Shown piece by piece: positions 106-30,956 of a stretch of 47,739 nt of DNA (the first letter of the stretch is position 1; every line of letters starts with the position of its first letter). Source of the DNA: Pelagibacteraceae bacterium AG-422-N09 (GTDB lineage Bacteria > Pseudomonadota > Alphaproteobacteria > Pelagibacterales > AG-422-B15). The notes under the pieces were generated by a model, which saw only the letters and a list, made by a program, of their open reading frames with translations, was not told the origin of the DNA and did no database searches. The stretch covers positions 10,001-57,739 of the forward strand of contig QCMV01000002.1 of NCBI GenBank assembly GCA_003213515.1, in the 5' to 3' direction. A program made the position numbers and the translations under genes.

Positions 106-729
106 ATGAAAGAAAGCAGTCAAATAAATTATTACTATAATAATTCATCATCACCAGCTGATTTTGCTCGTCAGTATTTTGACTATTTAAATAAAGTTCT
201 CAATAAAATTGATGACAAAAGTTTAAACAAACTCTTTAAAGAATTTGAAGATGCTAGGTCTAAAGGAAAGACAATTTTTGTATTGGGTAACGGAGGTTCT
301 TCAACTACAGCGACAACAATGGCAAATGATATAGGATTTGACATAATTAAAAAAACTGGAATTGATAAACCATTTAAAATTCATGCTCTCACTGATAATA
401 ATGCTGTTATAACAGCAATTTCAAACGACATAGGTTACGAGGAAGTATTTTTGAATCAACTTAAAATTCATTACAGAAAGGGCGATAAGATATTACTAAT
501 TTCTGCAAGTGGAAACTCTGAGAATCTAATTTTAGCTGCAAAATGGGTTAAAAAGCAAAAGGGTAAAATTATAAGTTTTTTAGGATTTGATGGAGGAAAG
601 CTTAAAAAAATTTCTGACTTGAACATTCATATTGATACTAATAATGGAGAGTATGGCCCCGTAGAAGATTGCCATTTAATAATAAATCATGTTATGGCTC
701 ATTGGTTTCAAATGTATTTAAAAAAATAA
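106..729 (+). CDS. SIS-domain sugar-phosphate isomerase, GmhA-like
   Basis: This 207-residue protein is a single SIS domain of the size of phosphoheptose isomerase GmhA, which converts sedoheptulose 7-phosphate to D-glycero-manno-heptose 7-phosphate in the cytoplasm. The phosphate-binding GNGGSS loop is at residues 61-66, a second loop ASGNSEN at 134-140, GFDGG at 160-164, and a C-terminal E187/D188/H190/H195 region. In classical GmhA the GNGGS loop is followed by a zinc-site His and Glu; here those places are Thr and Asp (T71, D75), so the metal chemistry may differ. It is the first gene after the 5S rRNA and is followed by ugd. A heptose role is supported by an HldE-like protein and a sugar nucleotidyltransferase further on (28840-30956), but another ketose/aldose phosphate substrate is possible. 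Confidence 0.8.
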   Translation: MKESSQINYYYNNSSSPADFARQYFDYLNKVLNKIDDKSLNKLFKEFEDARSKGKTIFVLGNGGSSTTATTMANDIGFDIIKKTGIDKPFKIHALTDNNAVITAISNDIGYEEVFLNQLKIHYRKGDKILLISASGNSENLILAAKWVKKQKGKIISFLGFDGGKLKKISDLNIHIDTNNGEYGPVEDCHLIINHVMAHWFQMYLKK

Positions 730-4370: not shown

Positions 4371-4401
4371 TTTATTAATTTAATAAAATATAAAATTAAA
4401 T

Positions 4402-5058: not shown

Positions 5059-5067
5059 CTTTTTTAG

Positions 5068-5406: not shown

Positions 5407-5418
5407 AATTAAATACAA

Positions 5419-6372: not shown

Positions 6373-6373
6373 A

Positions 6374-6450
<77 letters not shown>

Positions 6451-6600
6451 GCAATTAATAAGATATTTGGTCCTGTCTATAAATGCAAACATTGCTCCTG
6501 GTTTTATTGGTTGAATAGTTTTATGTCAATGTATAAATAAGCTCTTACTAACAAAACTAATATATTCTAGTGTGTACTGACTTTTGATTATTGACTCTTA
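6451..6600. other. 150-nt spacer upstream of tRNA-fMet
   Basis: No ORF or repeat is seen. For the minus strand this holds the region 5' of the tRNA and the end of the fusion gene at 6601. It should contain the tRNA promoter unless the tRNA is cotranscribed with that gene. No clear sigma-70 pair or terminator was found by eye. Confidence 0.3.
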
Positions 6601-8973: not shown

Positions 8974-9036
8974 TTACCAAATTACTCTAAGATTTGAACA
9001 GATAACCCCAATTGATACCAATTTATAAATATTTTA
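8974..9036. promoter_or_regulatory. short divergent promoter region
   Basis: These 63 bases separate the starts of the minus-strand triple fusion and the plus-strand membrane protein. A TATAAAT box lies about 15 bases before the ATG at 9037, but no well-spaced -35 element is obvious. Support is mainly the gene orientation. Confidence 0.3.
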
Positions 9037-11016: not shown

Positions 11017-11025
11017 AATTAATCA

Positions 11026-11832: not shown

Positions 11833-12177
11833 ATATTTCTCATATATTTTTTTAACTAAATTTAAAAAATAGTCTTTATTAATATCCATTACTGGATCAG
11901 AACTTATATCTGGAAACTCTTTCTTTTGTTTATTTTGACTCTCCTCCGTGTCTCCCTTTATATAAAAAAACTGTTCATCTAGTGGAATTTCTAATTTTAT
12001 TTCACTTTCATCTTTGTATGAAGTAACTACTACTTTTTTATTAATATATTCAAAATTAATATTTTTTATGAATTCATCAAATAACTTAATATCAGTTTCT
12101 GCAAAGTTATTTTTAAATTCTCTCGATTCAATTAAGAATCTGTATATAAAACTTTCAAATTTAATTTTCTTTGGCAT
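11797..12177 (-). CDS. small hypothetical protein after a radical SAM gene
   Basis: A 126-residue, acidic/lysine-rich, soluble protein that I do not recognise. It has no signal peptide, cysteines or membrane segment. Its ATG lies inside the end of the upstream radical SAM gene (17-base overlap), as in translationally coupled pairs. At its 3' end it overlaps the convergent methyltransferase by 36 bases. The position as last gene of a GT2/radical SAM operon suggests an accessory or partner protein of the radical SAM enzyme. The overlap at both ends makes the reading less certain than for its neighbours. Confidence 0.6.
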   Translation of the reverse strand: MPKKIKFESFIYRFLIESREFKNNFAETDIKLFDEFIKNINFEYINKKVVVTSYKDESEIKLEIPLDEQFFYIKGDTEESQNKQKKEFPDISSDPVMDINKDYFLNLVKKIYEKYLLSNSNGNIPG

Positions 12178-13321: not shown

Positions 13322-13330
13322 TGTTTAATA

Positions 13331-14278
13331 TTACTTCTCGAAATCAAAAATTTTGTCAATAATATAAAGTGGTCTATTTTTTGTTTCTTCAAATATTCTA
13401 GCGATATATTCTCCCACAATCCCAATTAAAAAAATTTGAACTCCGCTAAATATTATTATTGTAAGAATTATTGCTGTAAATCCTGGTACCAATGAGTCGG
13501 TGAAAAACTTTAAATATAAATAATAAAGTGAAATTAAAGTACCTACAATTATTGTGAAAGTCCCTAATTGAACAGCAAAAGTAAGAGGTTTGTTTGAAAA
13601 AGAAAATATAGCATTCATAGAGAAACCTAACATTTTAAAAAATGGAAACTTTGTTATTCCCGCTACTCGTTTATCCCTTTCATAAAAAAATGCTTTAGAT
13701 TTGAAACCAAGCCATGGAATCATCCCCCTTATAAATCTATTTTTTTCTCTTAACTTGCTAAATTCTGACGCAGTTCTTTTAGACAACACTGCAAAATCCC
13801 CTGAATTAAGGTTTATGTTTGTATCACTCATCATTTTCATTATTTTATAAAATAGTCCTGCAGAGGCTTTCTTGAAAAATGTTTCACCTTTTCTTTCTTT
13901 TCTTACGCCATATACAAAATCATAACCCTCATTATTACAAAGATCATACATCTCCTCTATTAACTCAGGTGGATCTTGTAAGTCTGCGTCTATAATACAT
14001 ATGTAATCACCCATTGCATAATCAATACCAGCAGTTATTGCCATTTGATGTCCAAAATTTCTTGTGAAAGATATTATTTTGATACAATCTATATATTTCT
14101 TAAGAATATTAAGTGAATTATCATTAGATCCGTCATTTACAAATATTACTTCAGTACTAACTTTATCTTTTATTTTTTGTTTCAATTTTAAGATTCTATC
14201 AATACTTATCTCTAAAATTTCTTCCTCATTATAAACAGGTAATACAATACTCAGAGTGTTTTTATTTTTAGTTGACAT
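13331..14278 (-). CDS. GT2 polyprenyl-phosphate glycosyltransferase (ArnC/GtrB/DPM1-like)
   Basis: Moves a sugar from its nucleotide donor to undecaprenyl phosphate on the inner face of the cytoplasmic membrane. The 315 residues contain a GT-A domain (IVLPVYNEEE at 11-20, FVNDGSND at 46-53, DADLQDPP at 97-104) followed by two C-terminal transmembrane segments around residues 225-290, the standard layout of this family. It heads the minus-strand operon with the radical SAM gene and the small unknown gene. The sugar it loads might be used by a GT-C-type membrane transferase such as the candidate at 9037. Confidence 0.92.
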   Translation of the reverse strand: MSTKNKNTLSIVLPVYNEEEILEISIDRILKLKQKIKDKVSTEVIFVNDGSNDNSLNILKKYIDCIKIISFTRNFGHQMAITAGIDYAMGDYICIIDADLQDPPELIEEMYDLCNNEGYDFVYGVRKERKGETFFKKASAGLFYKIMKMMSDTNINLNSGDFAVLSKRTASEFSKLREKNRFIRGMIPWLGFKSKAFFYERDKRVAGITKFPFFKMLGFSMNAIFSFSNKPLTFAVQLGTFTIIVGTLISLYYLYLKFFTDSLVPGFTAIILTIIIFSGVQIFLIGIVGEYIARIFEETKNRPLYIIDKIFDFEK

Positions 14279-14362
14279 AGGATTTTTTATAAGTTCTATA
14301 ACATCTTAATATATCAAATAAACTCAGAAATAAACTTACTTTTATTATATAGTTTTACTACA
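14279..14362. promoter_or_regulatory. divergent promoter region
   Basis: These 84 bases separate the start of the minus-strand GT2 operon from that of the plus-strand O-antigen ligase gene, so promoters in both directions are expected. TATTATAT about 15 bases before the ATG at 14363 could be a -10 box. No clear -35 was found. Confidence 0.35.
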
Positions 14363-15646
14363 ATGACTTATCAACTACTACATGTAATACAACGTTTATT
14401 AATTTGTTTCATACCTTTAGCACTTATTATTGGCCCCTTTATTGCAGATTTGTTTGTAGTTGTTTGCTCGTTGTTATTTTTATTTTTTTCTATAAGTAAA
14501 AAAGAGTTTAAATATTTTAAAAGTATTTTTTTTCTAACATTTATCTGCTTGTGCTTATACTTACTTATAAGATCGATATTTTCAAACGATTACCTACTTT
14601 CTCTTGAAAGCTCATTATTTTACTTTAGATTTGGCTTATTTTCTCTTGCAGTATGGTACATTCTTGAAAATGATAAGCTTTTTATAAAAACTTTTTATTT
14701 ATTTATCATATTCACTTTTCTTATTCTTTTTATAGATTCTTTCTATCAGTATTTCACAGGTTTTAATTTACTTGGCTATAAATACAATGGAATACGTCTC
14801 TCAAGTTTTTTTGGGCAAGAAATGGTTCTTGGCAACTACATTTCTAGACTAATGCCTCTTCTTATAGGAATTATTCTCTACTATCACAATTCCTCAAAGA
14901 TATCTTTGATCATTGGATTTTTATTCTTAATTTTATCCGATGTACTCATATATATCAGTGGAGAAAGAAGCGCATTTTTTTTCCTGATTCTCACCACCAT
15001 TATATTAGTGATAATTTCAAATAGATGGAAATTATTGAGATTAATTTCTTTCCTTATATCATTAGCGATTATTATATTTCTGTCATTATATAATCCATCT
15101 GTAAAAGAAAGAATGATAGATGCTACAATTAATCAGACTAATATAAATGAAGATAAAATATATTTTTTCTCGTATGAGCATACTTCTCTCTATAATACTG
15201 CCATAAATATTTTTTATGATAATCCTATTTTTGGAGTTGGAACAAAGATGTTTAGGGTTATGTGCAATGATGAAAAGTACCGTTTAATAGATACAGTCAA
15301 TGAAACCGAATATGTGAGGTCTTGTAGCACTCATCCTCATAATGTATTTTTACAATTATTAGCTGAGACAGGATTAGTTGGTTTTCTACCAATTTTCTTA
15401 TTATTTATATTTATTATTTATCAATTTTGTAGACAAACTGTAGCCACATGGATTACTAAAAAAAGTTTTTTGAGTGATTTCCAAATTTGTTTGTATATTT
15501 CAATTATGCTTTCAATTTGGCCTTTTGTTCCAAGCTTAAATATATTTAATAACTGGATAAGTATTATATTTTACTTACCTGTTGGATTTTTATTATTTAC
15601 ATATGAAGCACATAATAATAAACCTAATAACCTAAGTAACACCTAA
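14363..15646 (+). CDS. O-antigen ligase/polymerase family membrane protein (WaaL/Wzy type)
   Basis: A 427-residue polytopic protein with about ten to twelve hydrophobic segments. It has a large periplasmic loop (~residues 255-325) containing the family motif region: GVGTKMFR, then HPHNVFLQLLAETGLVGF. WaaL ligases join polyprenyl-linked O-antigen to lipid A-core, and related Wzy-type proteins polymerise repeat units; sequence alone does not separate them. It is the only ligase/polymerase candidate in the window and precedes the large sugar-biosynthesis operon by 16 bases. It should act in the cytoplasmic membrane with its active loop in the periplasm. Confidence 0.88.
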   Translation: MTYQLLHVIQRLLICFIPLALIIGPFIADLFVVVCSLLFLFFSISKKEFKYFKSIFFLTFICLCLYLLIRSIFSNDYLLSLESSLFYFRFGLFSLAVWYILENDKLFIKTFYLFIIFTFLILFIDSFYQYFTGFNLLGYKYNGIRLSSFFGQEMVLGNYISRLMPLLIGIILYYHNSSKISLIIGFLFLILSDVLIYISGERSAFFFLILTTIILVIISNRWKLLRLISFLISLAIIIFLSLYNPSVKERMIDATINQTNINEDKIYFFSYEHTSLYNTAINIFYDNPIFGVGTKMFRVMCNDEKYRLIDTVNETEYVRSCSTHPHNVFLQLLAETGLVGFLPIFLLFIFIIYQFCRQTVATWITKKSFLSDFQICLYISIMLSIWPFVPSLNIFNNWISIIFYLPVGFLLFTYEAHNNKPNNLSNT

Positions 15647-15662: not shown

Positions 15663-16652
15663 ATGAAAATTATTGTTACAGGAGGCGCTGGTTTCATAGG
15701 AAGTCATTTGGTTGATGAGTTACTAACAAAGAGTCATGAAGTTATTGTGTTAGATAATTTTTCAACTGGAAGAAAACAAAACTTAGATCATATAGAAAAT
15801 ATTAAAATCATTGATTGTGATCTTTCTATAAACGGATCCTGGACTAGTGAATTTAGAGGAACAGATTTAGTGTTTCATATTGCGGCATTAGCAGACATTG
15901 TTCCAAGTATAAAGGATCCGTCAAAATACTTTGAAGCGAACGTGGTAGGTACCTTTAATACACTAAAAGCTTCTCATGAACATGGTGTAAAAAAATTTAT
16001 TTATTCAGCTTCTTCATCCTGCTATGGAATACCAAAAAAATATCCAACTAATGAAAAAGAAGAAATTGATACGCACTACCCATACGCATTAACCAAAAAA
16101 ATGGGAGAAGATCTTGTAATGCATTTTGAAAAAATCTATAAACTTCCTTCAATTTCACTTAGATTTTTTAATGTATACGGCACAAGATCAAGAACATCAG
16201 GCACCTATGGGGCCGTAATGGGTGTATTTTTAGCACAAAAAATAGCGAACAAACCATTTACAATTGTTGGCGATGGAGAGCAAACAAGAGATTTTACTTA
16301 TGTTTCAGATGTAGTTAACGCATTGATAAAAGCCTCAGACTCAGATCTTTCAGGAGAAATTTTGAATGTAGGGAGTGGAAATACTATATCAGTAAATACA
16401 CTAGCGAAATTAATAGGTGGGAATGACTATAAAAAAGTTTTTATCCCTAAAAGACCAGGTGAACCCGATTGTACATTTGCAAATATAGAAAAAATAAAGA
16501 AACTATTAAATTGGGAACCTTTTGTTCCAATTGAAGAAGGAGTAAATATTATACTTAAAAATATTGATTATTGGAAAGAAGCTCCAGTTTGGACTCCTGA
16601 AACAATAAAAAAAGAAACAACTGATTGGTTTAAATATTTAGGAAATGAATAA
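15663..16652 (+). CDS. NAD-dependent NDP-sugar epimerase (GalE/WbpP-like)
   Basis: A 329-residue extended SDR. The NAD-binding GGAGFIG is at 7-13, HIAALAD at 72-78, SASSSCYG at 115-122 and the catalytic Y141-x3-K145. The C-terminal half has the sugar-nucleotide-binding pattern (RFFNVYG, VGDGEQTRDFTYV). A Shine-Dalgarno AAGGA lies seven bases before the ATG. Likely a UDP-hexose or UDP-HexNAc 4-epimerase, or a dehydratase-related member. It opens the dense operon that runs to 25666, and the next gene, also an epimerase-like SDR, overlaps it by eight bases. Confidence 0.9.
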   Translation: MKIIVTGGAGFIGSHLVDELLTKSHEVIVLDNFSTGRKQNLDHIENIKIIDCDLSINGSWTSEFRGTDLVFHIAALADIVPSIKDPSKYFEANVVGTFNTLKASHEHGVKKFIYSASSSCYGIPKKYPTNEKEEIDTHYPYALTKKMGEDLVMHFEKIYKLPSISLRFFNVYGTRSRTSGTYGAVMGVFLAQKIANKPFTIVGDGEQTRDFTYVSDVVNALIKASDSDLSGEILNVGSGNTISVNTLAKLIGGNDYKKVFIPKRPGEPDCTFANIEKIKKLLNWEPFVPIEEGVNIILKNIDYWKEAPVWTPETIKKETTDWFKYLGNE

Positions 16653-17628
16653 GAAGATCTATATAACTGGAGGAGGCGGATACGTAGGCTCAAATTTGAT
16701 ACCATCTCTTTTAAAAAAAGGATTTAAGGTAACAGTTCTAGATCTATTTATCTATGGTGAGGATGTACTTGACAAGCATACAAACCTAGAATGTATAAAA
16801 GGAGATATTAGAGATCAAGAATTACTAAAAAAGTCTATACAAGGCCACGATGTTGTAATTCACTTAGCATGTATTTCTAATGATCCTAGTTTTGAATTGA
16901 ATCCACTTTTAGGAAGATCAATAAATTTAGATGCGTTTGAGCCCCTAGTAAAGATTTCTAAATCTGCAGGAGTAAAAAGGTTTATTTATGCTTCTTCATC
17001 GTCTGTATACGGGGTCAAAAATGAGTTAGATGTTAATGAAACCATGACCTTAGAGCCAATGACTGATTATTCAAAGTTTAAAGCAGAATGTGAAATGATT
17101 TTAAGTTCATACAATTCAACTAACTTTGTAACAACCACAATTAGACCCGCAACAGTTTGTGGCTATGCTAGACGACAAAGACTCGATGTCGTTGTAAATA
17201 TCTTTACAAATATAGCATTTCACAAAAGAGAAATTTCAGTTTTTGGAGGTAAACAATTGAGACCAAATATTCATATTAACGATATGACAAAAGCCTACAT
17301 AAAAGTCTTAGAAGCACCAGATGACTTAATAAGCAATGAAATATTTAACGTTGGAGACAAGAATTTTACTGTCTTAGAATTAGCAGAAATTACAAAAAGT
17401 GTTGTGGGAAATGATGTCAAACTTGTGTTATCTCACTCTGATGATAATAGGTCCTATCATATATCTTCTAAAAAAATATTTAATTTGCTTAATTTCAAAA
17501 CAGAAAATACAATCAAAGATGCTGTAATTGATCTTCAATTTGCAATAAAGGAAAATAAACTTAAAGATAGTTTATCTAACCCAAAATACTTTAATATAAA
17601 AACAATGCAAAAGATTAACTTAGTTTAA
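16645..17628 (+). CDS. NAD-dependent epimerase/reductase (extended SDR)
   Basis: A 327-residue extended SDR with the nucleotide-binding GGGGYVG at 9-15, HLACISND at 73-80, ASSSSVYG at 116-123 and catalytic Y142-x3-K146. The HLACISNDPSFELNP segment is typical of a subgroup of NDP-sugar oxidoreductases found in O-antigen clusters; the exact reaction (epimerisation, 4-keto reduction or dehydration) is not decided. It starts within the end of the preceding epimerase and is followed after 19 bases by a DegT aminotransferase, so a 4-keto or 3-keto sugar for transamination may be its product. Confidence 0.88.
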   Translation: MNKKIYITGGGGYVGSNLIPSLLKKGFKVTVLDLFIYGEDVLDKHTNLECIKGDIRDQELLKKSIQGHDVVIHLACISNDPSFELNPLLGRSINLDAFEPLVKISKSAGVKRFIYASSSSVYGVKNELDVNETMTLEPMTDYSKFKAECEMILSSYNSTNFVTTTIRPATVCGYARRQRLDVVVNIFTNIAFHKREISVFGGKQLRPNIHINDMTKAYIKVLEAPDDLISNEIFNVGDKNFTVLELAEITKSVVGNDVKLVLSHSDDNRSYHISSKKIFNLLNFKTENTIKDAVIDLQFAIKENKLKDSLSNPKYFNIKTMQKINLV

Positions 17629-17647: not shown

Positions 17648-18769
17648 ATGGTTAAAAAAGTAAGATATTCATATTTACCGCAGCAATTTGAAAATATAGA
17701 TGATCTGTGGATACAGTTGAAAGAGTTTGTAAAAAGTGGAGACTTCACTCTTGGTAAACCACTCCAAGAATTTGAAAATAAGTTTGCCAAATTAATTGGT
17801 GTTAAGCATGCTATAGGAGTTAATTCTGGAACAGATGCAATTAAGCTACCACTTAAAGCCTATGGGGTTGGACATGGAGATGAAGTAATTACAGCTGCTA
17901 ATACTTTTGTTGCAACTGTTGGCGCTATTACTGAAATTGGTGCAAAGCCAATTTTTATAGATTGTGATGATACATTTTGCATGAATACAAATTTGATTGA
18001 GGAAAAAATTAATGAGAAAACAAAAGCAATTGTACCTGTTCATTTTACAGGATACATGACAGAAATGAATCATGTAATGAAATTAGCCCAAAAGTATAAC
18101 CTACCTGTAATAGAAGATGCTTGCCAGTCAATTCTAGGAGAAATAGATAATAAAAAAGCAGGTACTTGGGGAGATGCTGGTGCATTTTCTTTGCACCCAT
18201 TAAAAAATTTAAATGTTTGGTCAGATGGGGGCTTAATTACATGTAATGATGATGAATTAGCAAAGAAATTAAGGTTGTTAAGAAATCATGGTTTAATTGA
18301 CAGAGATAATGTCAGTTTACTGGGTTACAATTCTAGGTTAGATACGATCCAAGCTGTTGTTGGAAATTGGCTTATTCCACAAACCAATTCAATTGCTGAT
18401 AAAAGAATAGAAAATGCAGCGTATTTAGATAGTAATCTATCAAAGATAAATTCAATTACATTACCACCAAGACCGAAAAATTATAAAATTGTATACCATC
18501 TCTACATTGTATTTGCAGAAAAAAGGGATGAATTGCTTGAATATTGTCTCACAAAAGGTATCGAGGCTAAAGTTCACTACCCAATTCCTATATATAGGCA
18601 ACCGGCATTAAGTTTTTTAAATCATTCTGAAGGTGATTTTCCTGTTACCGATAGTCATGCAAAGAAGATAATTTCATTTCCATGTGATCAGCATTTGGAA
18701 AAAGAGGAGCTAGACTATATAATTAACACTGTATCCAGTTTTTATTCAAAGTCAAAAAGTGACAATTAA
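17648..18769 (+). CDS. DegT/DnrJ/EryC1/StrS-family sugar aminotransferase
   Basis: A PLP-dependent aminotransferase of 373 residues that would convert a keto NDP-sugar to an amino sugar using glutamate. The sugar-aminotransferase signatures are complete: NSGTDA at 59-64, ANTFVAT at 84-90, EDACQS at 156-161, and the Schiff-base lysine K186 in HPLKNLN with a downstream DGG. A second DegT homologue follows with an 11-base overlap; the two are clearly different proteins, so they probably act at different positions or steps. Confidence 0.93.
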   Translation: MVKKVRYSYLPQQFENIDDLWIQLKEFVKSGDFTLGKPLQEFENKFAKLIGVKHAIGVNSGTDAIKLPLKAYGVGHGDEVITAANTFVATVGAITEIGAKPIFIDCDDTFCMNTNLIEEKINEKTKAIVPVHFTGYMTEMNHVMKLAQKYNLPVIEDACQSILGEIDNKKAGTWGDAGAFSLHPLKNLNVWSDGGLITCNDDELAKKLRLLRNHGLIDRDNVSLLGYNSRLDTIQAVVGNWLIPQTNSIADKRIENAAYLDSNLSKINSITLPPRPKNYKIVYHLYIVFAEKRDELLEYCLTKGIEAKVHYPIPIYRQPALSFLNHSEGDFPVTDSHAKKIISFPCDQHLEKEELDYIINTVSSFYSKSKSDN

Positions 18770-19868
18770 TAATATAGCTTATATTGATTTACAAGCTCAG
18801 TGGACAACTGAGAAAAAAGATTTATTGAAAATAATTGATAATGTTATGTCTAGCGGCCAGTTTGTTGGTGGAAAGTATGTTGATCAGTTTGAAAAAAAAA
18901 TTGCAAAGTTTTGTAATGTTAAATACGCCGTTTCTTTGAATAGTGGTACTGATGCTCTAACAGTTGCACTACATTGTGCAGGAGTTAAGAAAGGAGATGA
19001 GGTAATTACAGCTCCTAATTCATTCATATCCTCAGCGTCAGTTATAGCTCATTTAGGAGCGAAACCTGTATTCGCAGACGTGCTTGAGGATCAAAATATC
19101 GATCCCGAAGAAATTGAAAAAGTAATTACAAAGAAAACTAAGGCAATAATACCAGTCCATCTCACTGGAAGAATATGTGAGATGAAAAAAATTAATAAAA
19201 TAGCCAAGAGAAAAAATATTGTTGTGATAGAGGATGCTGCTCAAGCAATTGGCTCAAAATATTATAATAAAATGAGTGGATCAATTGGTCATATTGGATG
19301 TTTTTCTACTCATCCACTTAAGAATTTAAACGCTTCTGGCGATGGTGGTTTTATTACTACTAACAATGCTCTATATGCAAAGAGAATAAAAAAATTGTGT
19401 AACCTTGGGATAATAAATAGAAATATAGTCGAGGAATTTGGCTATGTATCAAGATTAGACAATTTACAAGCAGCAATACTATTATATCGTTTGTCAAAGA
19501 TGAAGGATGTTATACGAAAAAGAAGAAATAACGTAGATTTCTATATGAAAAATTTAGATAAAAATCATGTTTTCTATCCCAAAGAAAAAAAATATCAATT
19601 TAATACGTATCATACTTTTGTAATTCAAGTTAGAGAGAGAGACAAATTAAGAAATTATCTTAAAAAAAAGGGTATAGGTACCGCAATACACTACCCTATC
19701 CCTATTCATCTTCAACCAGCGGCAAAAAAATTAAAATATAATAAAAATAGCTTTCCTGTAACAGAAAAACAATCAAAAGAAATTTTAACATTACCTGTTC
19801 ATCAATTTCTTTCTCTTAAACAAATAAAATTTATAACAGATACAATTAATGAATATTTTAAACAGTAA
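18759..19868 (+). CDS. DegT/DnrJ/EryC1/StrS-family sugar aminotransferase (second of pair)
   Basis: A 369-residue PLP aminotransferase beginning at a GTG inside the end of the previous gene. Signatures are NSGTDAL at 61-67, APNSFISS, EDAAQAIG at 158-165 and Schiff-base K188 in HPLKNLNASGDGG. It keeps the HYPIPIHLQPA element near the C-terminus that helps bind sugar nucleotides. The 20-base overlap with the transketolase gene after it supports one operon. Tandem sugar aminotransferases suggest a diamino sugar, or one of the pair may act as a PLP-dependent dehydratase, which cannot be decided here because both retain the lysine. Confidence 0.92.
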   Translation: MTINNIAYIDLQAQWTTEKKDLLKIIDNVMSSGQFVGGKYVDQFEKKIAKFCNVKYAVSLNSGTDALTVALHCAGVKKGDEVITAPNSFISSASVIAHLGAKPVFADVLEDQNIDPEEIEKVITKKTKAIIPVHLTGRICEMKKINKIAKRKNIVVIEDAAQAIGSKYYNKMSGSIGHIGCFSTHPLKNLNASGDGGFITTNNALYAKRIKKLCNLGIINRNIVEEFGYVSRLDNLQAAILLYRLSKMKDVIRKRRNNVDFYMKNLDKNHVFYPKEKKYQFNTYHTFVIQVRERDKLRNYLKKKGIGTAIHYPIPIHLQPAAKKLKYNKNSFPVTEKQSKEILTLPVHQFLSLKQIKFITDTINEYFKQ

Positions 19869-20694
19869 GCTCAATCTGGCAGCACAGAAAATTACTTTAG
19901 ATGACAGATCTAAGTATTTAAGAAGTCTAGTAGTCAAATCTCTATTAGGAGCTGGCAGAGGGCATATGGGTTCTGCTATGTCTATAATTGAAATATTAAG
20001 AGTTTGTTACGATAGTTATATTAAGCACTTTCCAAATGATGCAAATAATGATTTGAGAGATAGATTAATTTTAAGCAAAGGCCATGGATGTCTCGGGCTC
20101 TATGCTTTACTTGTCGATAAAGGTTATTTTTCAATTTCTGAATTAGATTCAGTAGGGTCCTTTAACTCTATTTTAGGAGGCCATCCCGAGCACTATAAGA
20201 TACCGGGAGTAGAAGCTTCGACGGGGGCCCTGGGCCATGGACTATCCATCGGTGTAGGTATTGCAAAAGCACTTAAGATGAAGAAAAAAAATAACAAGGT
20301 AATTGTTATAGTCGGGGACGGGGAAATAAATGAAGGATCAGTCTGGGAAGCAGCAATGTCAGCATCTAAGCACAATCTAAATAATCTAATTGTTTTTATA
20401 GATTATAATAAAATTCAATCTTACGGTTTTACTAGTGACGTTATTGATCTAGAGCCATTAGCAGAAAAATGGAAGAGTTTTGGATTTATAGTTAATGAAG
20501 TTAATGGACATGATATTAATCAAATAGAGGAATCCCTGAATCAATCATCTGAAGACGATAGACCTAAAGCTATTATCTGTCATACTGTTAAAGGAAAAGG
20601 CTTTCCTTTTGCAGAAAATAATCCGAAGTGGCATCATAAAAATAATTTTACTGATGAAGAAATAAGTTTATTGAAAGAGTTTACGAATACATGA
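19849..20694 (+). CDS. transketolase-like, N-terminal (TPP-binding) subunit
   Basis: A 281-residue protein equal to the N-terminal thiamine-diphosphate domain of transketolase. It shows SKGHG at 76-80, STGALGHGLS at 124-133 and the metal/TPP motif GDGEINEG at 156-163. The C-terminal half is a separate gene starting four bases before this one ends (ATGA), the usual two-subunit arrangement of split transketolases, so it is not a frameshift. Inside a sugar operon, between aminotransferases and an oxygenase, it probably transfers a two-carbon ketol unit to a sugar intermediate and is unlikely to serve the pentose phosphate pathway. Confidence 0.92.
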   Translation: MNILNSKLNLAAQKITLDDRSKYLRSLVVKSLLGAGRGHMGSAMSIIEILRVCYDSYIKHFPNDANNDLRDRLILSKGHGCLGLYALLVDKGYFSISELDSVGSFNSILGGHPEHYKIPGVEASTGALGHGLSIGVGIAKALKMKKKNNKVIVIVGDGEINEGSVWEAAMSASKHNLNNLIVFIDYNKIQSYGFTSDVIDLEPLAEKWKSFGFIVNEVNGHDINQIEESLNQSSEDDRPKAIICHTVKGKGFPFAENNPKWHHKNNFTDEEISLLKEFTNT

Positions 20695-21620
20695 GACAAG
20701 CAGCACTTAACTCAGTTTATGAAATTGCAAAAGAAAATGAAAATATAGTTTTTATTGGATCAGACCTTGGTCCTGGAGTTCTTGAGGAGTTCAAAAAAAA
20801 TATTCCTGAGAGATTTTTTATGGAAGGAGTTGCAGAGCAATTTGTGATTGGATTTTCAGCTGGATTAGCTAAGGAAGGCTTTATTCCTTTTGTAAACACT
20901 ATATCTACGTTTTTAACTCGAAGATGTTTTGAACAAATTACTATAGATTTATCCTTACATGATCTTCCAGTGAAATTAATTGGTAATGGCGGAGGTTTAG
21001 TTTATTCACCACTTGGCCCTACACATCAGGCAATTGATGATATAGCCATATTAAAAGCAATTCCAAATATGACTATTGTATGTCCATGCGATGCAATAGA
21101 AATGAAAAAGCTTATAACCGCATCAATAGACTGGCCTCACCCAATGTATATAAGGTTAGCAAGAGGCGGTGAAGATATTGTAACAGCAAGAACAACTGAT
21201 TTTCAAATAGGAAAGGGATTATTGATCAGAAAACCATTGAAAAATTTATTTATTACTTGTGGGGCTATGGCACAAAAAGCAATTAAAGCCTCCGATAACT
21301 TATTAGAAGAGGGTATCGAAAGTGGAGTTTTACATATGCATACAGTCAAACCATTAGACACAGGGATTTTAAAAAAATGGCTGCCTCTGGTAGATAATGT
21401 AATAACAGTGGAAGAGCACATAAGAAGTGGCGGGTTAGGTACTAGTATATTAGAATTTTGTAATGATTTTTTACCATCTCAAACAAAAAATATTCACAGA
21501 ATTGGCCTTCCAAATAAATACGTTGAACATTATGGTACACATGATGAGCAACAAGTATTTTATGGGTTAACAGATGAAAATCTTACAAATGCAATGAAGG
21601 AAATGATTAATAATGTCTAA
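20691..21620 (+). CDS. transketolase-like, C-terminal subunit
   Basis: A 309-residue partner covering the central pyrimidine-binding and C-terminal domains. The catalytic glutamate that activates TPP is E49 in MEGVAEQF. The GGGLVYSPLGPTHQAIDD region and the final VEEH...GGLG element match split transketolase or DXS-like beta subunits. It overlaps the N-terminal subunit gene by four bases and the following oxygenase gene by eight, implying coupled expression. With the preceding protein it should form an alpha2beta2-type enzyme in the cytoplasm. Confidence 0.92.
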   Translation: MRQAALNSVYEIAKENENIVFIGSDLGPGVLEEFKKNIPERFFMEGVAEQFVIGFSAGLAKEGFIPFVNTISTFLTRRCFEQITIDLSLHDLPVKLIGNGGGLVYSPLGPTHQAIDDIAILKAIPNMTIVCPCDAIEMKKLITASIDWPHPMYIRLARGGEDIVTARTTDFQIGKGLLIRKPLKNLFITCGAMAQKAIKASDNLLEEGIESGVLHMHTVKPLDTGILKKWLPLVDNVITVEEHIRSGGLGTSILEFCNDFLPSQTKNIHRIGLPNKYVEHYGTHDEQQVFYGLTDENLTNAMKEMINNV

Positions 21621-22416
21621 TGATTATCAATCATACCAAGAATTAAAAATTTCGAAGGAGTTCATTAATAATGGATATGTGATAAAAAAAATTAATCAAG
21701 AAAAGTCCTTTACTTGGATAAATGATAAAGTATTAAATATTTCGCAAAAATTATTAAAAACAAAAAAATTACCCGCTAGTTTTTTTGATCAAACACATAA
21801 ATATTTAAATTTGAAAAATCTAAATAATTTTAGAATGAGTATTATAAATGAACTTAATAAATCTAAAAAATTTAAATTTCACTATTACAATATATCTCGA
21901 GAATACACTGATTTAATCGTTGGGAATGAACTAGCTATGCAAAAGAGAATAAACCTTAGTATTCAGCTTCCAAATGATTCAAGCTCTCTACTACCTGTAC
22001 ATTCAGATGTATGGTCAGGAGATTCACCCTATGAAGTTGTAGTATGGTTACCACTTGTAGATTGCTATAAGACAAAATCAATGTTCATTCTACCCCCAAA
22101 AGCAAATATAAAACTTAATAAAAATTTTGATAAATTTTATGGCAAATCCAGTGAAAGAATTTTTAATTTTATTAAAAAAGATATTAAATGGATAAAGATA
22201 GATAAAGGCGAATTATTGATATTCAATCAAGCCTTACCTCATGGTAATCGTATTAATAAGGAAATTTCGACAAGATGGTCTATGAATTGCAGATTTAAAA
22301 GCCTATTTTCACCATATGGAGATAAAAAAATAGGTGAATTTTTTATTCCTATAACAACAAAAGTTGCATCTAAAATTGGAATGCAATATCAGAGTCCCTT
22401 GTATACTAAAAAATGA
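21613..22416 (+). CDS. 2OG-Fe(II) oxygenase, sporadic carbohydrate cluster type
   Basis: A 267-residue protein with a non-heme iron facial triad: H130-x-D132 in PVHSDVW and distal H210 in ALPHGN, plus R221 placed to bind 2-oxoglutarate. This matches, from memory of family names, the oxygenase that co-occurs with LIC12192-type proteins in so-called sporadic carbohydrate clusters. It would hydroxylate or oxidise a sugar or its substituent. Overlaps: eight bases with the transketolase gene before and four with the LIC12192-like gene after. The N-terminal ~100 residues, lysine-rich, are not recognised. Confidence 0.82.
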   Translation: MSNDYQSYQELKISKEFINNGYVIKKINQEKSFTWINDKVLNISQKLLKTKKLPASFFDQTHKYLNLKNLNNFRMSIINELNKSKKFKFHYYNISREYTDLIVGNELAMQKRINLSIQLPNDSSSLLPVHSDVWSGDSPYEVVVWLPLVDCYKTKSMFILPPKANIKLNKNFDKFYGKSSERIFNFIKKDIKWIKIDKGELLIFNQALPHGNRINKEISTRWSMNCRFKSLFSPYGDKKIGEFFIPITTKVASKIGMQYQSPLYTKK

Positions 22417-22817
22417 AAAATAAGAAAAAAGTCAAAGGATATATTTTTAGTAGAGCTTTTGAAGGTGAGAGAGCACCTCAACATATACAGAATCTGGTAA
22501 TTAGAAATTATTGTAATAATAATAATTTAGAGTATCAATTAAGTGCAAGTGAATATGAGTTTAAAGACTCTCATTCTATGCTTTATCAAATGTTGGATGA
22601 ACTTTATGCGATAGATGGAATAATTGCTTATAGTATTTTTCAAATGCCAAGAGATACGTATTCTAGAAACAAGATAATCAATAAGATAATAAACAAAAAG
22701 AAAAGTTTTTATTTTGCGTTGGAAGAAATGAAAGTTTCAAATAAAGAAGATCTTTTTTTATTAGACGAAATCTGGAATGTTAACAAAATATTATCTAGTT
22801 GTTACAAACCAGAATAA
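22413..22817 (+). CDS. LIC12192-type sporadic carbohydrate cluster protein
   Basis: A 134-residue soluble protein of unknown function. The N-terminal strand KGYIFSRAFEGERAPQHIQN and the central ELYAIDGIIAYSIFQMP resemble the LIC12192 family, named after a Leptospira protein found in scattered carbohydrate gene clusters. It resembles the small resolvase-like or flavodoxin-like alpha/beta fold in pattern, but no catalytic residues can be assigned. It starts in the stop codon of the 2OG oxygenase and ends directly against the next ATG, so it is probably needed for the same step as the oxygenase. Confidence 0.78.
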   Translation: MKNKKKVKGYIFSRAFEGERAPQHIQNLVIRNYCNNNNLEYQLSASEYEFKDSHSMLYQMLDELYAIDGIIAYSIFQMPRDTYSRNKIINKIINKKKSFYFALEEMKVSNKEDLFLLDEIWNVNKILSSCYKPE

Positions 22818-23483
22818 ATGAAAAAACTTAAAAATTTTGTAACACCTCTACATCTTGCTTCAAAGAGAAATTATCTTGAACGCATGAATAACAATAAAGT
22901 AGATTGCATGAATGTTGCTAAAAAGTATGATCAAGATTATTGGGATGGAGATAGAAAGTACGGGTATGGTGGATATAAGTACATTGAGGGCTGGTGGGAA
23001 CCTGTTGCTCAACAATTAATCGATACTTACCATCTTGTTTCTGGATCAAAAATTCTAGATGTTGGATGTGGAAAGGGATTTTTACTTTACGAAATATATA
23101 AAAAAAACCCAGAGATAAATATTCAAGGGTTTGATATATCACAATATGCAATAAAAAATAGTAAAGATGAAATTAAAATGTATTTAAATGAATTTGATGC
23201 AAGAAATCTTTTCCCATATAAAAATAATGAATTTGATTTAGTAATTTCATTAGGAACTTTACATAATCTTAAGCTTTCAGACCTAAAGCAAACAGTAGCA
23301 GAAATAGAAAGAGTAGGTAATCAAGGATATATTATGCTCGAAAGCTACAGAAATAATAGAGAACTATTCAATTTACAATGTTGGGCATTAACTTGTGAAA
23401 CATTTTTTGATACTGAAACTTGGATTAACTTTTATGAGTCTGTAGGCTATAAAGGAGATTATGAATTCATTTACTTTGAGTGA
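22818..23483 (+). CDS. class I SAM-dependent methyltransferase
   Basis: A 221-residue methyltransferase. SAM motif I ILDVGCGKGFL lies around residues 76-86, motif II GFDIS follows, and the post-II region LGTLHNL is typical. The N-terminal 70 residues include an aromatic stretch (YWDGDRKYGYGGYKYIEGWWEP) seen in sugar-cluster methyltransferases of this type. It begins immediately after the LIC12192-like stop codon and overlaps the NUDIX-fusion gene by 23 bases. Probable O- or N-methylation of the operon's sugar; the target is unknown. Confidence 0.86.
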   Translation: MKKLKNFVTPLHLASKRNYLERMNNNKVDCMNVAKKYDQDYWDGDRKYGYGGYKYIEGWWEPVAQQLIDTYHLVSGSKILDVGCGKGFLLYEIYKKNPEINIQGFDISQYAIKNSKDEIKMYLNEFDARNLFPYKNNEFDLVISLGTLHNLKLSDLKQTVAEIERVGNQGYIMLESYRNNRELFNLQCWALTCETFFDTETWINFYESVGYKGDYEFIYFE

Positions 23484-24423
23484 GCATTCAAACAATGCCG
23501 TGAAGGCAATTATATTTAATGCAGATGGAAAGATACTTTTGCAAAAAAGAGATAATCATAAAAATCTTCCATTCGCAAACTGTTGGAATTTTTTTGGTGG
23601 AATCGTTGAAAAGGAAGAGTCATTAACTGCCGCTTTGAAAAGAGAGCTTAATGAGGAAATTTCTTACATTCCAAAGAATATTGAAAATGCAGCTTTTAAT
23701 TGGATATGGAAAAGTGAATGGAGACAGACCGTAAATCACTTTTATCCATTATTATGGGATGGTCAAATTTCAGATTTAGATCTTAAAGAAGGTCAGGAAA
23801 TGAGATTGTTTAGTCTTGATGAGATTCTTAAATTAGAACTTGTGCCAGCTATTTACTGTAATTTTGCTAATATATACAAGATTATTTCAAAGGATAAAAA
23901 TGCAATAAATGGAAACTTAATAAATTTTATAACTGATAGGTTTGTGAAAAATAATAATCTGATAAAAAAAAATGAAAGAGTTTATTTTGCAGCAAGTGAA
24001 AATATCAAATTATCAAGACAACAAATATTTTTATTCAGAGAAATATCTATTTTAAATAATCTTGAAGTGTCTAGAATTTGTTTACATAGAGATCAAAATT
24101 CTTTAATCCAGGAAATGATTATGTTTCATTGTAAATCAACAACTGTTGGACCTTTAAAACAATTAAATCAAAGCATCTCCTATCACATTGTTGATGGAGT
24201 TATACAAATTTCAGTTTATGAAAATGAAAAAATTAGAGATACTTATACTTTATCAAGCATATCATACTCTAATAAACAACTAGGTTCGATAAGAATAAAT
24301 CCTGATGAATATAGAACAGTATCTTCAATAACAGAAAACGCTATTTTTATAGAAACTACAAACGGACCATTCAAAGATGATGATACGATTTGGTTAGAGG
24401 AAAGACATAAAATTGAGAAATAA
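23461..24423 (+). CDS. NUDIX hydrolase fused to a WbuC-like cupin domain
   Basis: A 320-residue two-domain protein. Residues ~10-145 are a NUDIX hydrolase with the full box at 47-69 (G47, E53, R61-E62, E65-E66), expected to cleave a nucleoside diphosphate linked to another group such as an NDP-sugar. Residues ~170-315 resemble WbuC-type cupins of O-antigen clusters: RICLHRDQNSLIQEMI, then SYHIVDG, and a C-terminal IETTNGPF. The metal-binding histidines that WbuC proteins have after this region are replaced (VGPLKQLNQS), so the cupin may be structural or bind sugar without metal. The start overlaps the methyltransferase gene by 23 bases. The cupin call is by pattern and less certain than the NUDIX call. 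Confidence 0.82.
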   Translation: MNSFTLSEHSNNAVKAIIFNADGKILLQKRDNHKNLPFANCWNFFGGIVEKEESLTAALKRELNEEISYIPKNIENAAFNWIWKSEWRQTVNHFYPLLWDGQISDLDLKEGQEMRLFSLDEILKLELVPAIYCNFANIYKIISKDKNAINGNLINFITDRFVKNNNLIKKNERVYFAASENIKLSRQQIFLFREISILNNLEVSRICLHRDQNSLIQEMIMFHCKSTTVGPLKQLNQSISYHIVDGVIQISVYENEKIRDTYTLSSISYSNKQLGSIRINPDEYRTVSSITENAIFIETTNGPFKDDDTIWLEERHKIEK

Positions 24424-25666
24424 AGAAATAATTTTTAGGAGGGAAGACTGCCGAGCTTGTAAAAGTAAAAATCTAGATCTTTTCTTTGCTTTAAAACCAT
24501 CGCCAATTGGAGACGCGTTTATTAATAAAAATCAACTAGATATTAAGCAGGAAAAATTTCCTATAGATCTTTTCATGTGTAAGGACTGTGGTTTGGCACA
24601 ATTACTTGATGTTATTGATCCAGACATTTTGTATGGTAATTATATTTATCTTACTGAAAGCTCAGTAGGATTAAAAAATCATTTTAAAAATTTTGCTAGC
24701 CACATAATGCAAATATTAAAACTTAAAGAAAACTCAGTAGTTATAGATTTAGGAAGTAACGATGGCATTCTACTTAATTTTTTTAAAAATTTTGGTATGA
24801 ATGTAATTGGTATAGAGCCCGCTAAAGAAATTGCGCAAGCAGCAAATAAAAATGGCATAAAAACTATACCGAAATACTTTTCGTCAGAGGTTGTTAAGAA
24901 TATTTTACAGAACGAAGGCAAAGCTAAATTAATTACTTCAAATAACGTTTTTGCCAATGTTGACGATATTAGATCATGGGTGAAATGTGTTGAAAATCTC
25001 TTAGATTTTGATGGTGTTTATGTATTCGAAAGTTTTTATCTTTTAGATGTAATAAACAATTTCGTATTTGATTTTATTTATCATGAACATTTATCAGCTT
25101 TTTCAGTAAAACCAATAAAAAAACTATTTGAGAGTGTTGGTTTAAATTTAATTAAAGTTGAGCATGTAGAAACTAAAGGAGGTTCATTAAGATATTTTGT
25201 ACAGCGAGAACAAGGTCCTTTATCAGATGATGGAAGTGTTGCAGATTATCTTGCTTTAGAAGAAAAAGAAGGCTTGTATGTCAAACAGACTTATCAAGAA
25301 TTTGCAGAGAGAGTAAAAATCATAAAATTTGAGTCAATAAAGAAATTAAAAGAATTAAAGAATGAAGGAAAAGTTATTGCTGGATTTGGTGCATCTATTA
25401 CTGGAACAACTTTAATTCACCATTTTGAGTTGGAAGAGTTATTAGATTATTTAATTGATGATAACAGAGACAAACAGGGGAAATATAGTCCTGGTATACA
25501 TCTTCCAGTATATCCTGTGGAACACATATATCAAAAAAAACCTGACTACGTGTATATTTTAGCGTGGAGATTTGCTTCCTACTTCATAGATAAGAATGAA
25601 AAATTTATAAACTCTGGAGGAAAAGTTATAATTCCTGTACCAAATTTAAAAGTCATTGAGACTTAA
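24413..25666 (+). CDS. NDP-sugar C-methyltransferase (TylCIII/NovU-like)
   Basis: A 417-residue enzyme with the three-part layout of C-methyltransferases acting on NDP-4-keto deoxysugars: an N-terminal zinc domain (C13, C16, C56, C59), a SAM-binding domain (DLGSNDG at 112-118), the hallmark GGSLRYFVQ, and a C-terminal domain with GFGASITGTT. Members such as TylC3 add a methyl branch at C-3 or C-5. It starts at a TTG overlapping the NUDIX fusion by 11 bases, with a GAGG about 12 bases before. It is the last gene of the operon and implies a branched-chain methyl sugar product. Confidence 0.92.
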   Translation: MRNKEIIFRREDCRACKSKNLDLFFALKPSPIGDAFINKNQLDIKQEKFPIDLFMCKDCGLAQLLDVIDPDILYGNYIYLTESSVGLKNHFKNFASHIMQILKLKENSVVIDLGSNDGILLNFFKNFGMNVIGIEPAKEIAQAANKNGIKTIPKYFSSEVVKNILQNEGKAKLITSNNVFANVDDIRSWVKCVENLLDFDGVYVFESFYLLDVINNFVFDFIYHEHLSAFSVKPIKKLFESVGLNLIKVEHVETKGGSLRYFVQREQGPLSDDGSVADYLALEEKEGLYVKQTYQEFAERVKIIKFESIKKLKELKNEGKVIAGFGASITGTTLIHHFELEELLDYLIDDNRDKQGKYSPGIHLPVYPVEHIYQKKPDYVYILAWRFASYFIDKNEKFINSGGKVIIPVPNLKVIET

Positions 25667-28839: not shown

Positions 28840-30270
28840 ATGAAAACAGTTTTTGTATCAGGCGCGTTTAATGTTATTCATCCGGGACATCTAAGGCTAC
28901 TAAGATTTGCAAAGGAATGTGGAGATAAATTAATAGTAGGCGTGTTGTCCGATAAAGCTGCAGGAATAAAGGCACACATTCCTCAAGAGCTTAGGTTAGA
29001 AGGAGTAGAAATTAATAGTTGGGTTGATGAAGCTTTCTTAATTGATGGCTCAATCAAAGATATTATTTCTAAATTGAAGCCTGATATTGTTGTTAAGGGC
29101 AAAGAACATGAGGGAAGGCACAATATTGAGCTAGAAGATGTAAAGAAATATGGTGGCAAACTTTTGTTTAGTTCGGGTGAAAATGTATTTTCTTCAATTG
29201 ATTTAATACATCGAGAGTTTGATCCTAAAACTGATAATAGTATTAATGTGCCATCTGATTATCTAGAAAGACATAATATTACAAAAAATAGATTAACAGA
29301 GTTAGTTAATTCATTTTCAAAAATTAAAGTTTGTGTAATTGGTGATTTAATTATTGATGACTATATTACCTGTCAGTCTCTTGGAATGTCTGAAGAAGAC
29401 CCCTCAATAGTTGTTACACCAATAGATAAGACAAGGTTTATAGGAGGCGCTGGAATAGTGGCAGCTCATGGAGCAGGACTTGGAGCAACTTCTCATTTAT
29501 TTACTGTTACTGGTTCTGATGGAGCTAGTGATTATGCATTTGAAAGATTATCAGAATTTGGAGTACATACTGAAATATTTAAAGATGAAAATAGACCCAC
29601 CACAATAAAAGAAAGATACAGAAGTCAAGGTAAAACTCTTTTGAGAATGAATCATTTATACCAAGGATCAATTAATAAAAAATTATCAGATGCAATCTTA
29701 AATAAGTTTAAAAGTATAATTAAAAATACTGATTTAATAATATTTTCGGATTTTAATTATGGCTGTCTTCCCCAAATACTAGTTGAAGATATTATTTCGA
29801 TTGCTAAAAAAGAAAAAAAAATAATTGTTGCAGATAGTCAGACTTCATCTCAGTTAGGTGATATAAGCAGATTTCATTCAATGGATTTAATAACTCCTAC
29901 TGAAAAAGAAGCAAGAGTTAGCCTTAAAAATAATGAGGATGGCCTAGTTGTATTGGCAGAAAAACTTCGCTCTCAATCAAATGCTAAAAATATTATTTTA
30001 AAATTAGGTGAGGAAGGTATCTTAATACATGCTTCAGATCAGAAGGATCAAAAGGAATGGGTTACCGATAGGCTAAATGCATTAAATTTATCTGCAAAAG
30101 ATGTATCTGGTGCTGGTGATTCTTTATTAATTTGTAGCGCACTTACGCTTGCAAGCGGTGGCAGTATATTTGAATCTGCATTAATGGGATCAATTGCCGC
30201 TGCAGTACAGGTAAGTAGGGTTGGCAATGTTCCTATAGATTTTAAAGAAATTATTAAGGTTCTAGATTAA
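28840..30270 (+). CDS. HldE-like bifunctional nucleotidyltransferase/PfkB kinase, domain order reversed
   Basis: A 476-residue protein with two catalytic domains. Residues 1-~130 are a cytidylyltransferase-fold domain (HPGH at 14-17, then VKGKEHEG). Residues ~155-476 are a PfkB/ribokinase-family kinase with GGAGIVAAH and the catalytic GAGD at 424-427. In E. coli HldE the kinase comes first and the adenylyltransferase second; here the order is reversed. Activities would be phosphorylation and nucleotidylation of a heptose-like sugar. The SIS isomerase at 106 and the sugar-1-phosphate nucleotidyltransferase two bases downstream support a heptose pathway. It is also possible that only one step concerns heptose. 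Confidence 0.87.
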   Translation: MKTVFVSGAFNVIHPGHLRLLRFAKECGDKLIVGVLSDKAAGIKAHIPQELRLEGVEINSWVDEAFLIDGSIKDIISKLKPDIVVKGKEHEGRHNIELEDVKKYGGKLLFSSGENVFSSIDLIHREFDPKTDNSINVPSDYLERHNITKNRLTELVNSFSKIKVCVIGDLIIDDYITCQSLGMSEEDPSIVVTPIDKTRFIGGAGIVAAHGAGLGATSHLFTVTGSDGASDYAFERLSEFGVHTEIFKDENRPTTIKERYRSQGKTLLRMNHLYQGSINKKLSDAILNKFKSIIKNTDLIIFSDFNYGCLPQILVEDIISIAKKEKKIIVADSQTSSQLGDISRFHSMDLITPTEKEARVSLKNNEDGLVVLAEKLRSQSNAKNIILKLGEEGILIHASDQKDQKEWVTDRLNALNLSAKDVSGAGDSLLICSALTLASGGSIFESALMGSIAAAVQVSRVGNVPIDFKEIIKVLD

Positions 30271-30272: not shown

Positions 30273-30956
30273 ATGAGAGCAATGCTTCTAGCTGCTGGAA
30301 AAGGTACTAGGCTTAAACCTTATACTAACGATAAACCAAAATGTTTAATGCCAATTAAAGGCAAGCCATTATTAGATATATGGATTAATAAACTATGCAA
30401 TGTAGGTGTTAAAAATTTTTTTATAAATACTCATTATCTTCACGAACAGGTAAATGAATTTGTGTCAAGAAATGAATTAAAAGAAAAAATTCAACTTAGT
30501 CATGAGCTAGAATTGCTTGGAACAGCAGGAACACTATTAAATAATCTAAATTTTTTTAAAGAAGAAGATTCTTTTTTTATTTATGCAGATAATTATTGTG
30601 AGGATAACCTAGAAGAATTTATTTTAGCTCATCTTAATAGGCCAAAAGAGTGTCTAATGACCATGATGACTTTTAGAACAGATGATTTTGAAAGCTCAGG
30701 TATCGTTAAAGTTGATGATTATGGTATTGTAAGAAATTATTATGAAAAAGAAAAGCATTCAGAAGGCAACCTAGCAAATGGAGCTGTATTTATATTTTCA
30801 AAAGAATTTATCTCATTTCTAAAAGCCGGAGATTATAAAGGTGAAGACTTCAGTAAAGATATATTGAGTAGGCTTATTAATAATATATACACATATGAAA
30901 CTAAAGATTTGTTTTTAGATATTGGCTCAGTAAAAAATTATCTATCTGTTACATAA
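30273..30956 (+). CDS. sugar-1-phosphate nucleotidyltransferase (HddC-like)
   Basis: A 227-residue nucleotidyltransferase with the N-terminal signature LAAGKGTRLKPYT at 6-18, then KPKCLMPI and GKPLLD. It contains the LGTAGTLL element and a YADNYC acidic metal site. The size and pattern fit the mannose-1-phosphate guanylyltransferase and HddC (heptose 1-phosphate guanylyltransferase) group. It lies two bases after the reversed HldE-like gene, which makes a GDP- or ADP-heptose product plausible. Between it and the ABC exporter sits a 171-base stretch holding a gene remnant. Confidence 0.86.
   Translation: MRAMLLAAGKGTRLKPYTNDKPKCLMPIKGKPLLDIWINKLCNVGVKNFFINTHYLHEQVNEFVSRNELKEKIQLSHELELLGTAGTLLNNLNFFKEEDSFFIYADNYCEDNLEEFILAHLNRPKECLMTMMTFRTDDFESSGIVKVDDYGIVRNYYEKEKHSEGNLANGAVFIFSKEFISFLKAGDYKGEDFSKDILSRLINNIYTYETKDLFLDIGSVKNYLSVT

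Follow-up and report, generated by a model that had tools for sequence, protein, structure and literature searches.

Positions 17648-25666 of the window (47,739 nt of contig QCMV01000002.1 from Pelagibacteraceae bacterium AG-422-N09, the whole stretch of DNA that was analysed) contain nine open reading frames (ORFs), all on the + strand, which include the two halves of a split transketolase, a predicted 2-oxoglutarate (2OG)-Fe(II) oxygenase and a LIC12192-family protein. This operon may well belong to a dedicated nucleotide-sugar pathway, the end product of which would be an unusual surface sugar, probably of the heptose type or of higher carbon number; we rate this reading, with its proposed steps, at a shade under even. 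The case for one pathway rests on a gene order conserved in other genomes and not on the packing of the genes, and the best evidence for it is a copy of the set carried by a phage. ORF calls and Pfam/NCBIfam family matches bore out the nine overlapping or abutting genes, and the families assigned to them, of an earlier sequence-only reading of this DNA; the unit extends upstream to two SDR genes at 15663 and 16645. Its members are listed below, together with the number of 57 well-covered related loci (at least 8 kb upstream and at least 5 kb downstream) that carry a homologue.

15663..16652, +: SDR1, NAD-dependent epimerase/dehydratase of the GalE-like superfamily (Pfam/NCBIfam); 36/57 loci
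16645..17628, +: SDR2, nucleotide-sugar dehydrogenase/epimerase, closest solved structure 6vo6; conserved, 46/57 loci
17648..18769, +: AT1, DegT/DnrJ/EryC1 sugar aminotransferase with the pyridoxal phosphate (PLP) lysine (HPLKNL), closest PDB entry 3uwc; optional, 17/57 loci
18759..19868, +: AT2, second DegT aminotransferase with the PLP lysine; optional, any homologue in 25/57 loci
19849..20694, +: TKN, transketolase N half, thiamine diphosphate (ThDP) domain, PF00456 at 166 bits; 49/57 loci, 39 of them of the close clade
20691..21620, +: TKC, transketolase C half, pyrimidine and C-terminal domains (PF02779/PF02780)
21613..22416, +: OXY, TIGR04324 PhyH-type 2OG-Fe(II) oxygenase, 323 bits (cut-off 150)
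22413..22817, +: LIC, TIGR04323 LIC12192-family protein, 143 bits (cut-off 55); 57/57 loci
22818..23483, +: MT, small class I S-adenosylmethionine (SAM) methyltransferase; core member, 55/57 loci
23461..24423, +: NUDIX hydrolase fused to a WbuC-type cupin, 45.7 bits (cut-off 42); accessory, NUDIX in 2/57 and cupin in 24/57 loci
24413..25666, +: CMT, sugar C-methyltransferase (Methyltransf_13/23/14), TTG start; accessory, 17/57 loci

Conserved gene order

An alignment search of genome contigs with OXY returned 223 relatives, and the best 80 of these, six loci from a phylum search and four viral contigs made up the 90 loci compared. Their consensus order was SDR1 - HldE-like - SIS - SDR2 - HAD-APH - TKN - TKC - (AT1 - AT2) - OXY - LIC - MT, with cupin, HldE-like and HddC-like genes 3' of MT in some loci. 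The core order was found from Pelagibacteraceae to cyanobacteria and actinobacteria, LIC stood immediately 3' of OXY in 89 of the 90 loci, and an APH homologue was present in 37 of the 57 well-covered ones. The constant partners are the types of enzyme by which a ketose phosphate is turned into a nucleoside diphosphate (NDP)-sugar.

In a phylum sample searched independently of OXY, the transketolase clade described below was found in 33 of 398 genomes and TIGR04323 in seven, all seven lying within the 33 (hypergeometric 1.4e-8, the genomes not being phylogenetically independent). This co-occurrence is not chance, and the association of the split transketolase with the 2OG oxygenase and LIC12192 families, proposed as a check in the sequence-only reading, is real in the phylum sample and in the related loci alike. 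When 13 loci with no close transketolase nearby were traced to whole genomes, five were found to carry one elsewhere (57-62% identity), and four of these five adjoined SDR2/HAD-APH in the stretches read; one more of the 13, from the Thalassobaculum litoreum genome (L171), has a second, divergent OXY-LIC pair beside SDR2, SDR1 and a divergent split transketolase. A divergent split transketolase (~35-39%) also lies near OXY-LIC in eight loci, mostly Pelagibacteraceae (L019, L024, L028, L037, L042, L045, L059 and L093), directly upstream of the pair in several and mostly without HAD-APH.

The junctions between the nine ORFs measure, in order, -11, -20, -4, -8, -4, 0, -23 and -11 bp, so that neighbours overlap by 4-23 bp except for one pair that abuts exactly. 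Tight packing had been taken to imply a single pathway; the packing itself stands, but it is weak evidence in this window, because 14 of the 27 other same-strand gaps are also no longer than 5 bp. The proposal of one coherent, uncharacterised sugar pathway is instead supported by the conserved order. The size of the genome, its gene packing and best hits to Pelagibacteraceae and SAR116 cells suggest that it is probably that of a SAR11 relative.

The aminotransferases, CMT and the NUDIX-cupin gene are local options, and since they are optional across loci neither an amino group nor a C-methyl branch is required of the core product. AT1 and AT2 match PF01041 at 339 and 360 bits and both retain the PLP-binding lysine, as expected of aminotransferases rather than dehydratases, while CMT has all three of the Methyltransf_13, 23 and 14 domains, as in TylC3/NovU-type sugar C-methyltransferases. 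The doubly branched amino sugar suggested earlier is not upheld, given the low counts of AT1 and CMT and the heptose-type character of the conserved partners.

A link to bradyrhizose was considered and rejected: five early homologous loci lay in what was inferred to be a Bradyrhizobium-like genus, but LIC occurred in only two of ten photosynthetic genomes sampled there against 32 of 118 overall. Azospirillum lipoferum Sp59b carries the cluster, and its O-antigen has been reported to contain only ordinary sugars (PMC4153317); that composition is uninformative, as the product of the cluster may sit elsewhere.

A phage-borne copy

The IMG/VR contig L098 (IMGVR_UViG_3300047552_000915, 46.7 kb) carries the sugar gene set at 3885-14639. 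A DnaB helicase (phrog_19, 1.9e-46) is followed by SDR1, a transferase resembling rfaE domain II (121 bits), SIS and SDR2. After a methyltransferase and an inserted HNH endonuclease, which part SDR2 from TKN, come TKN, TKC, OXY, LIC and MT. Beyond MT stand a terminase large subunit (6.6e-45), a near-canonical HldE-type PfkB kinase (rfaE domain I, 336 bits, cut-off 345) and a portal resembling Vibrio phage proteins, and after these come proteins of the virion and of DNA ejection and a family 2 glycosyltransferase. A further contig, L099, matches L098 at 99.98% identity over 16 kb. Because a phage keeps about 9 kb for the set and has the two HldE parts next to the transketolase, this copy argues for one pathway more strongly than any other evidence, and we infer from it that the transketolase belongs to the building of the carbon chain. 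A GT9 heptosyltransferase suspected by eye in phage (L174:4933-6573) was discarded, as it had no Pfam support.

Probable heptose-type partners

Three further genes of the window, outside the operon, resemble the partners seen in related loci.

106..729, +: GmhA-like SIS ketose/aldose isomerase (SIS), GmhA at 82 bits, below the cut-off of 209; homologues beside SDR2/HLDE in 30/57 loci; probable pathway member outside the operon
28840..30270, +: HldE-like bifunctional protein (HLDE) with reversed domains, nucleotidyltransferase then PfkB kinase, rfaE_dom_I at 198 bits, below the cut-off of 345; homologues in 45/57 loci; probable member
30273..30956, +: HddC/ManC-like sugar-1-phosphate nucleotidyltransferase, 92 bits against a cut-off of 300; 3' of the HldE-like gene in several related loci; possible member

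The structure closest to SDR2, 6vo6, we take to be Campylobacter Cj1427, a GDP-heptose C4-dehydrogenase. Cj1427 oxidises GDP-heptose at C4 using 2-oxoglutarate (PMC10680097). By analogy, the gene set would work like a heptose pathway, and we go no further than this and do not claim membership of the GDP- or ADP-heptose pathway, because the isomerase, HldE-like and HddC-like scores all fall below the curated heptose cut-offs. A HAD phosphatase fused to an APH-type kinase (L016:6672-8249 and homologues) is a frequent neighbour upstream of the transketolase in related loci; the L016 fusion matches no Pfam family, and other homologues match APH.

The split transketolase

The operon transketolase is not the central one, because the genome also encodes a separate full-length transketolase of 665 aa (G000:C2:107566-108537); the possibility raised with the sequence-only reading, that the operon enzyme is the sole transketolase and serves central metabolism, therefore does not hold. 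In a tree, 62 members from oxygenase loci and 20 others formed one clade (support 0.93) on a long stem (0.57), apart from 12 other split transketolases. The closest solved structure for both halves is the Carboxydothermus split transketolase (6yaj/6yak). The transketolase stands behind the HAD phosphatase and APH kinase in the oxygenase lineage and in the radical SAM lineage described below.

In the E. coli enzyme, H26, H66, H100, N185, E411 and H473 belong to the ThDP/Mg and donor sites, and D469, H461 and S385 to the acceptor and phosphate sites. The equivalents of the former group are kept in the clade (H66 being read from the motif SKGH), whereas those of the latter are changed: D469 to Leu, H461 to Asn or Ser (Asn in TKC) and S385 to a gap. 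These changes suggest an unusual acceptor but do not single one out, because other split transketolases share the losses; the exchange of Asp469 for Leu was for the same reason rejected as a signature of this clade.

The oxygenase, the LIC12192 protein and a radical SAM alternative

TIGR04323 and TIGR04324 were named for their sporadic occurrence in carbohydrate clusters only, and the family records assign no function; no directly relevant paper came up in literature searches on the two families or on transketolase within sugar clusters. The iron triad and 2OG-binding arginine of OXY (H130-x-D132, H210 and R221) are invariant in 44 homologues, and its AlphaFold2 (AF2) model (pLDDT 92) matched SptF, PtlH, HygX and EctD in Foldseek (E ~1e-8 to 1e-10). 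Residues and modelled fold are both those of a PhyH-type 2OG-Fe(II) oxygenase, as which OXY is predicted to act.

The AF2 model of LIC (pLDDT 95) has the fold of a serine-recombinase catalytic domain (Z 14.7 to 4bqq, 2.6 A over 125 residues), and the top 26 rows of the comparison were all recombinases. Serine recombinases carry the nucleophile motif Y-x-R-x-S and a D-R-x-x-R motif; LIC has GYI-x-S-R and YSxFxLP in their places, and its invariant residues are Q23, Q26, N27, E47, R85 and E104. No match to PF00239 exceeded the cut-off (E 0.09, 1/47 members). The link to recombinases, as seen in the model, is structural only, because a LIC sequence profile searched against the PDB found no recombinase. 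With the recombinase motifs out of register and other polar residues invariant, the predicted structure is that of a reused recombinase fold. LIC is fused to MT in two loci (L024:10786-11844 and L087:9217-10266) and to a CMT-like methyltransferase in two others (L068:10798-12351 and L081:10573-12351), which points to work alongside methyltransferases.

Of 20 transketolase loci without OXY-LIC, 12 have a 354-aa SPASM radical SAM protein in the interval from TKC to MT, and two more have it next to TKC (L112) or MT (L110). The nearest solved relatives of this protein include the sugar enzymes cytosylglucuronate decarboxylase, DesII and BtrN. Across L108-L123 and L015, L020, L036, L051 and L080 the protein replaces or accompanies OXY-LIC; the two occur together at the last five loci, in the same operon in L015, L020 and L036. 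A strict either/or exchange between OXY and the radical SAM protein was rejected as too strong, since 15 of 31 oxygenase genomes checked also carry the radical SAM gene. HemF, the O2-dependent coproporphyrinogen oxidase, was found in 0/14 radical-SAM-only genomes, 11/16 oxygenase-only genomes and 11/15 genomes with both (0/14 against 22/31 with the oxygenase, Fisher 6.8e-6), a contrast that is only suggestive because it is confounded by phylogeny, the genome groups being related by descent.

Proposed route and competing explanations

In the proposed pathway, TKN and TKC would take a two-carbon ketol unit from a common ketose phosphate and pass it to an unusual aldehyde acceptor; the ketose phosphate so formed would be converted to an aldose phosphate by the GmhA-like SIS. 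The HldE-like kinase/nucleotidyltransferase, or the phosphatase-kinase fusion with the HddC-like enzyme, would then form an NDP-sugar to be oxidised or epimerised by SDR1 and SDR2. OXY with its partner LIC would carry out a C-H oxidation, a step that the radical SAM protein would perform where oxygen is scarce, and the small MT would finish the sugar; in the window genome AT1/AT2 would add amino groups and CMT a C-methyl group as local options. Several points weigh against this reading. Apart from the shortfall against the GmhA, HldE and HddC equivalog cut-offs, the three heptose-type genes sit 3-17 kb from the operon, and the HAD-APH gene was sought in the window genome (1.22 Mb assembly, 85% complete) and not found. 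Most loci were collected through OXY, which biases the counts, and L049 and L071, which hold OXY-LIC, SIS and HldE, lack a transketolase of this clade. In OXY-free loci SIS is usually missing and the HldE-like gene is present in about half, so that the heptose-type and transketolase modules may be separable; the confounding of the HemF contrast counts on the same side.

The sequence-only reading had the split transketolase transfer a two-carbon ketol to a keto sugar and so form a branch, with CMT supplying a second one; in this model the ketol would be received by the keto group of an NDP-keto-sugar, which SDR2 would provide. There is a precedent in the split transketolase Rif15, whose acceptor for a C2 keto unit is a quinone ketone (PMC6002545), and both the selective loss of acceptor-side residues and the fusions of LIC to a CMT-like protein would fit. 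We consider such branching unlikely, however, as it leaves the HAD phosphatase, APH kinase, HldE-like kinase and GmhA-like isomerase unexplained, those in the phage set included, while the residue changes recur in other split transketolases and CMT is accessory. The conserved partners are those of a heptose-type route in which a ketose phosphate becomes an aldose phosphate and is then activated, which fits a chain-building transketolase better than a branch-adding one; overall, the earlier interpretation is partly supported. Somewhat less probable again is a small non-sugar group for the glycan, such as a phosphorylated polyol or acid, as the joint product of transketolase, phosphatase, kinase, oxygenase and methyltransferase, beside an independent heptose cassette. 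A HAD-APH-TKN-TKC-radical SAM-MT block does occur without SIS and often without SDR2, and OXY-LIC loci exist without this transketolase; yet about half of the loci with such a block still have SDR1/HLDE beside it, and the phage holds both blocks together.

The GmhA- and HldE-like partners and the retained catalytic His and Glu residues would also suit a transketolase whose only part is to enlarge the pool of ordinary sedoheptulose 7-phosphate or erythrose 4-phosphate from which a common heptose is made. This is improbable in a genome that already has a full transketolase, with the clade set apart on its long branch and lacking acceptor/phosphate-site residues of the central enzyme, and with the isomerase and kinase well under the heptose cut-offs. 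A chance grouping of genes that share no product, in a streamlined genome with a mixed glycan locus, can draw on the generally tight packing of the window and on the accessory standing of the AT, CMT and NUDIX genes, but the core order kept in dozens of unrelated genomes and in phage contradicts it for the core genes and makes it very improbable. We regard as possible, and put forward tentatively, a fuller form of the chain-building pathway, a self-contained route to an undescribed sugar in distant bacteria and phage, in which a dedicated transketolase builds the chain, the C-H step falls to OXY with the recombinase-fold LIC or to the radical SAM protein according to oxygen, and LIC12192 would be a new enzyme or a methyltransferase partner.

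Neighbouring genes in the window

Directly downstream of the operon lie two members of orphan glycan families, a putative sugar O-methyltransferase (TIGR04371; 25713-26729, -) and a glycosyltransferase (TIGR04372; 26830-28065, +). A second PhyH-like 2OG oxygenase, recognised by sequence at 46099-46863, is unrelated to TIGR04324 and adjoins a DegT aminotransferase. Two NeuB-like, sialic-acid-type synthases are predicted at 5518-6372 and 35411-36472, and because of them the glycan locus probably makes nonulosonic acids as well.

Relation to known systems

The operon would thus represent a well-defined, widely spread and uncharacterised pathway for a rare nucleotide sugar, its surprising elements being the recombinase-fold LIC family and the phage-borne copy. 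On this reading the orphan families TIGR04323 and TIGR04324 become parts of a defined, testable pathway, LIC12192 gains a fold, and the split transketolase gains a use outside central metabolism. A replacement of oxygenase by radical SAM protein, like that of HemF by HemN, would point to the reaction, and a phage with the route would reveal the sugar that is required, on the surface or the virion, by the phage or its host.

As in the sporadic carbohydrate clusters for which TIGR04323 and TIGR04324 were named, LIC and OXY are adjacent and far above the curated cut-offs; what is added here are the transketolase, HAD-APH, isomerase, HldE and methyltransferase partners and the phage copy. The GDP- and ADP-heptose pathways (GmhA, HldE or HddA/GmhB/HddC, and a Cj1427-type dehydrogenase; PMC10680097) share the order of enzyme types from isomerase through kinase and nucleotidyltransferase to nucleotide-sugar dehydrogenase, whereas the window members score below the cut-offs, the HldE domains are reversed, and the split transketolase, OXY, LIC and MT are extra. 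Rif15a/Rif15b of rifamycin biosynthesis (PMC6002545), compared by description, likewise form a two-gene transketolase with overlapping genes in a specialised pathway, but act on a polyketide quinone beside a P450, while the window enzyme lies in a sugar pathway context. The Carboxydothermus split transketolase keeps the Asp of the GED motif where this clade has Leu. Serine recombinase catalytic domains (4bqq, 3bvp and gamma-delta resolvase) share the predicted fold of LIC, which differs from them in having no DNA-binding domain, an identity of 10-15% and a catalytic Arg/Ser pattern that is not kept.

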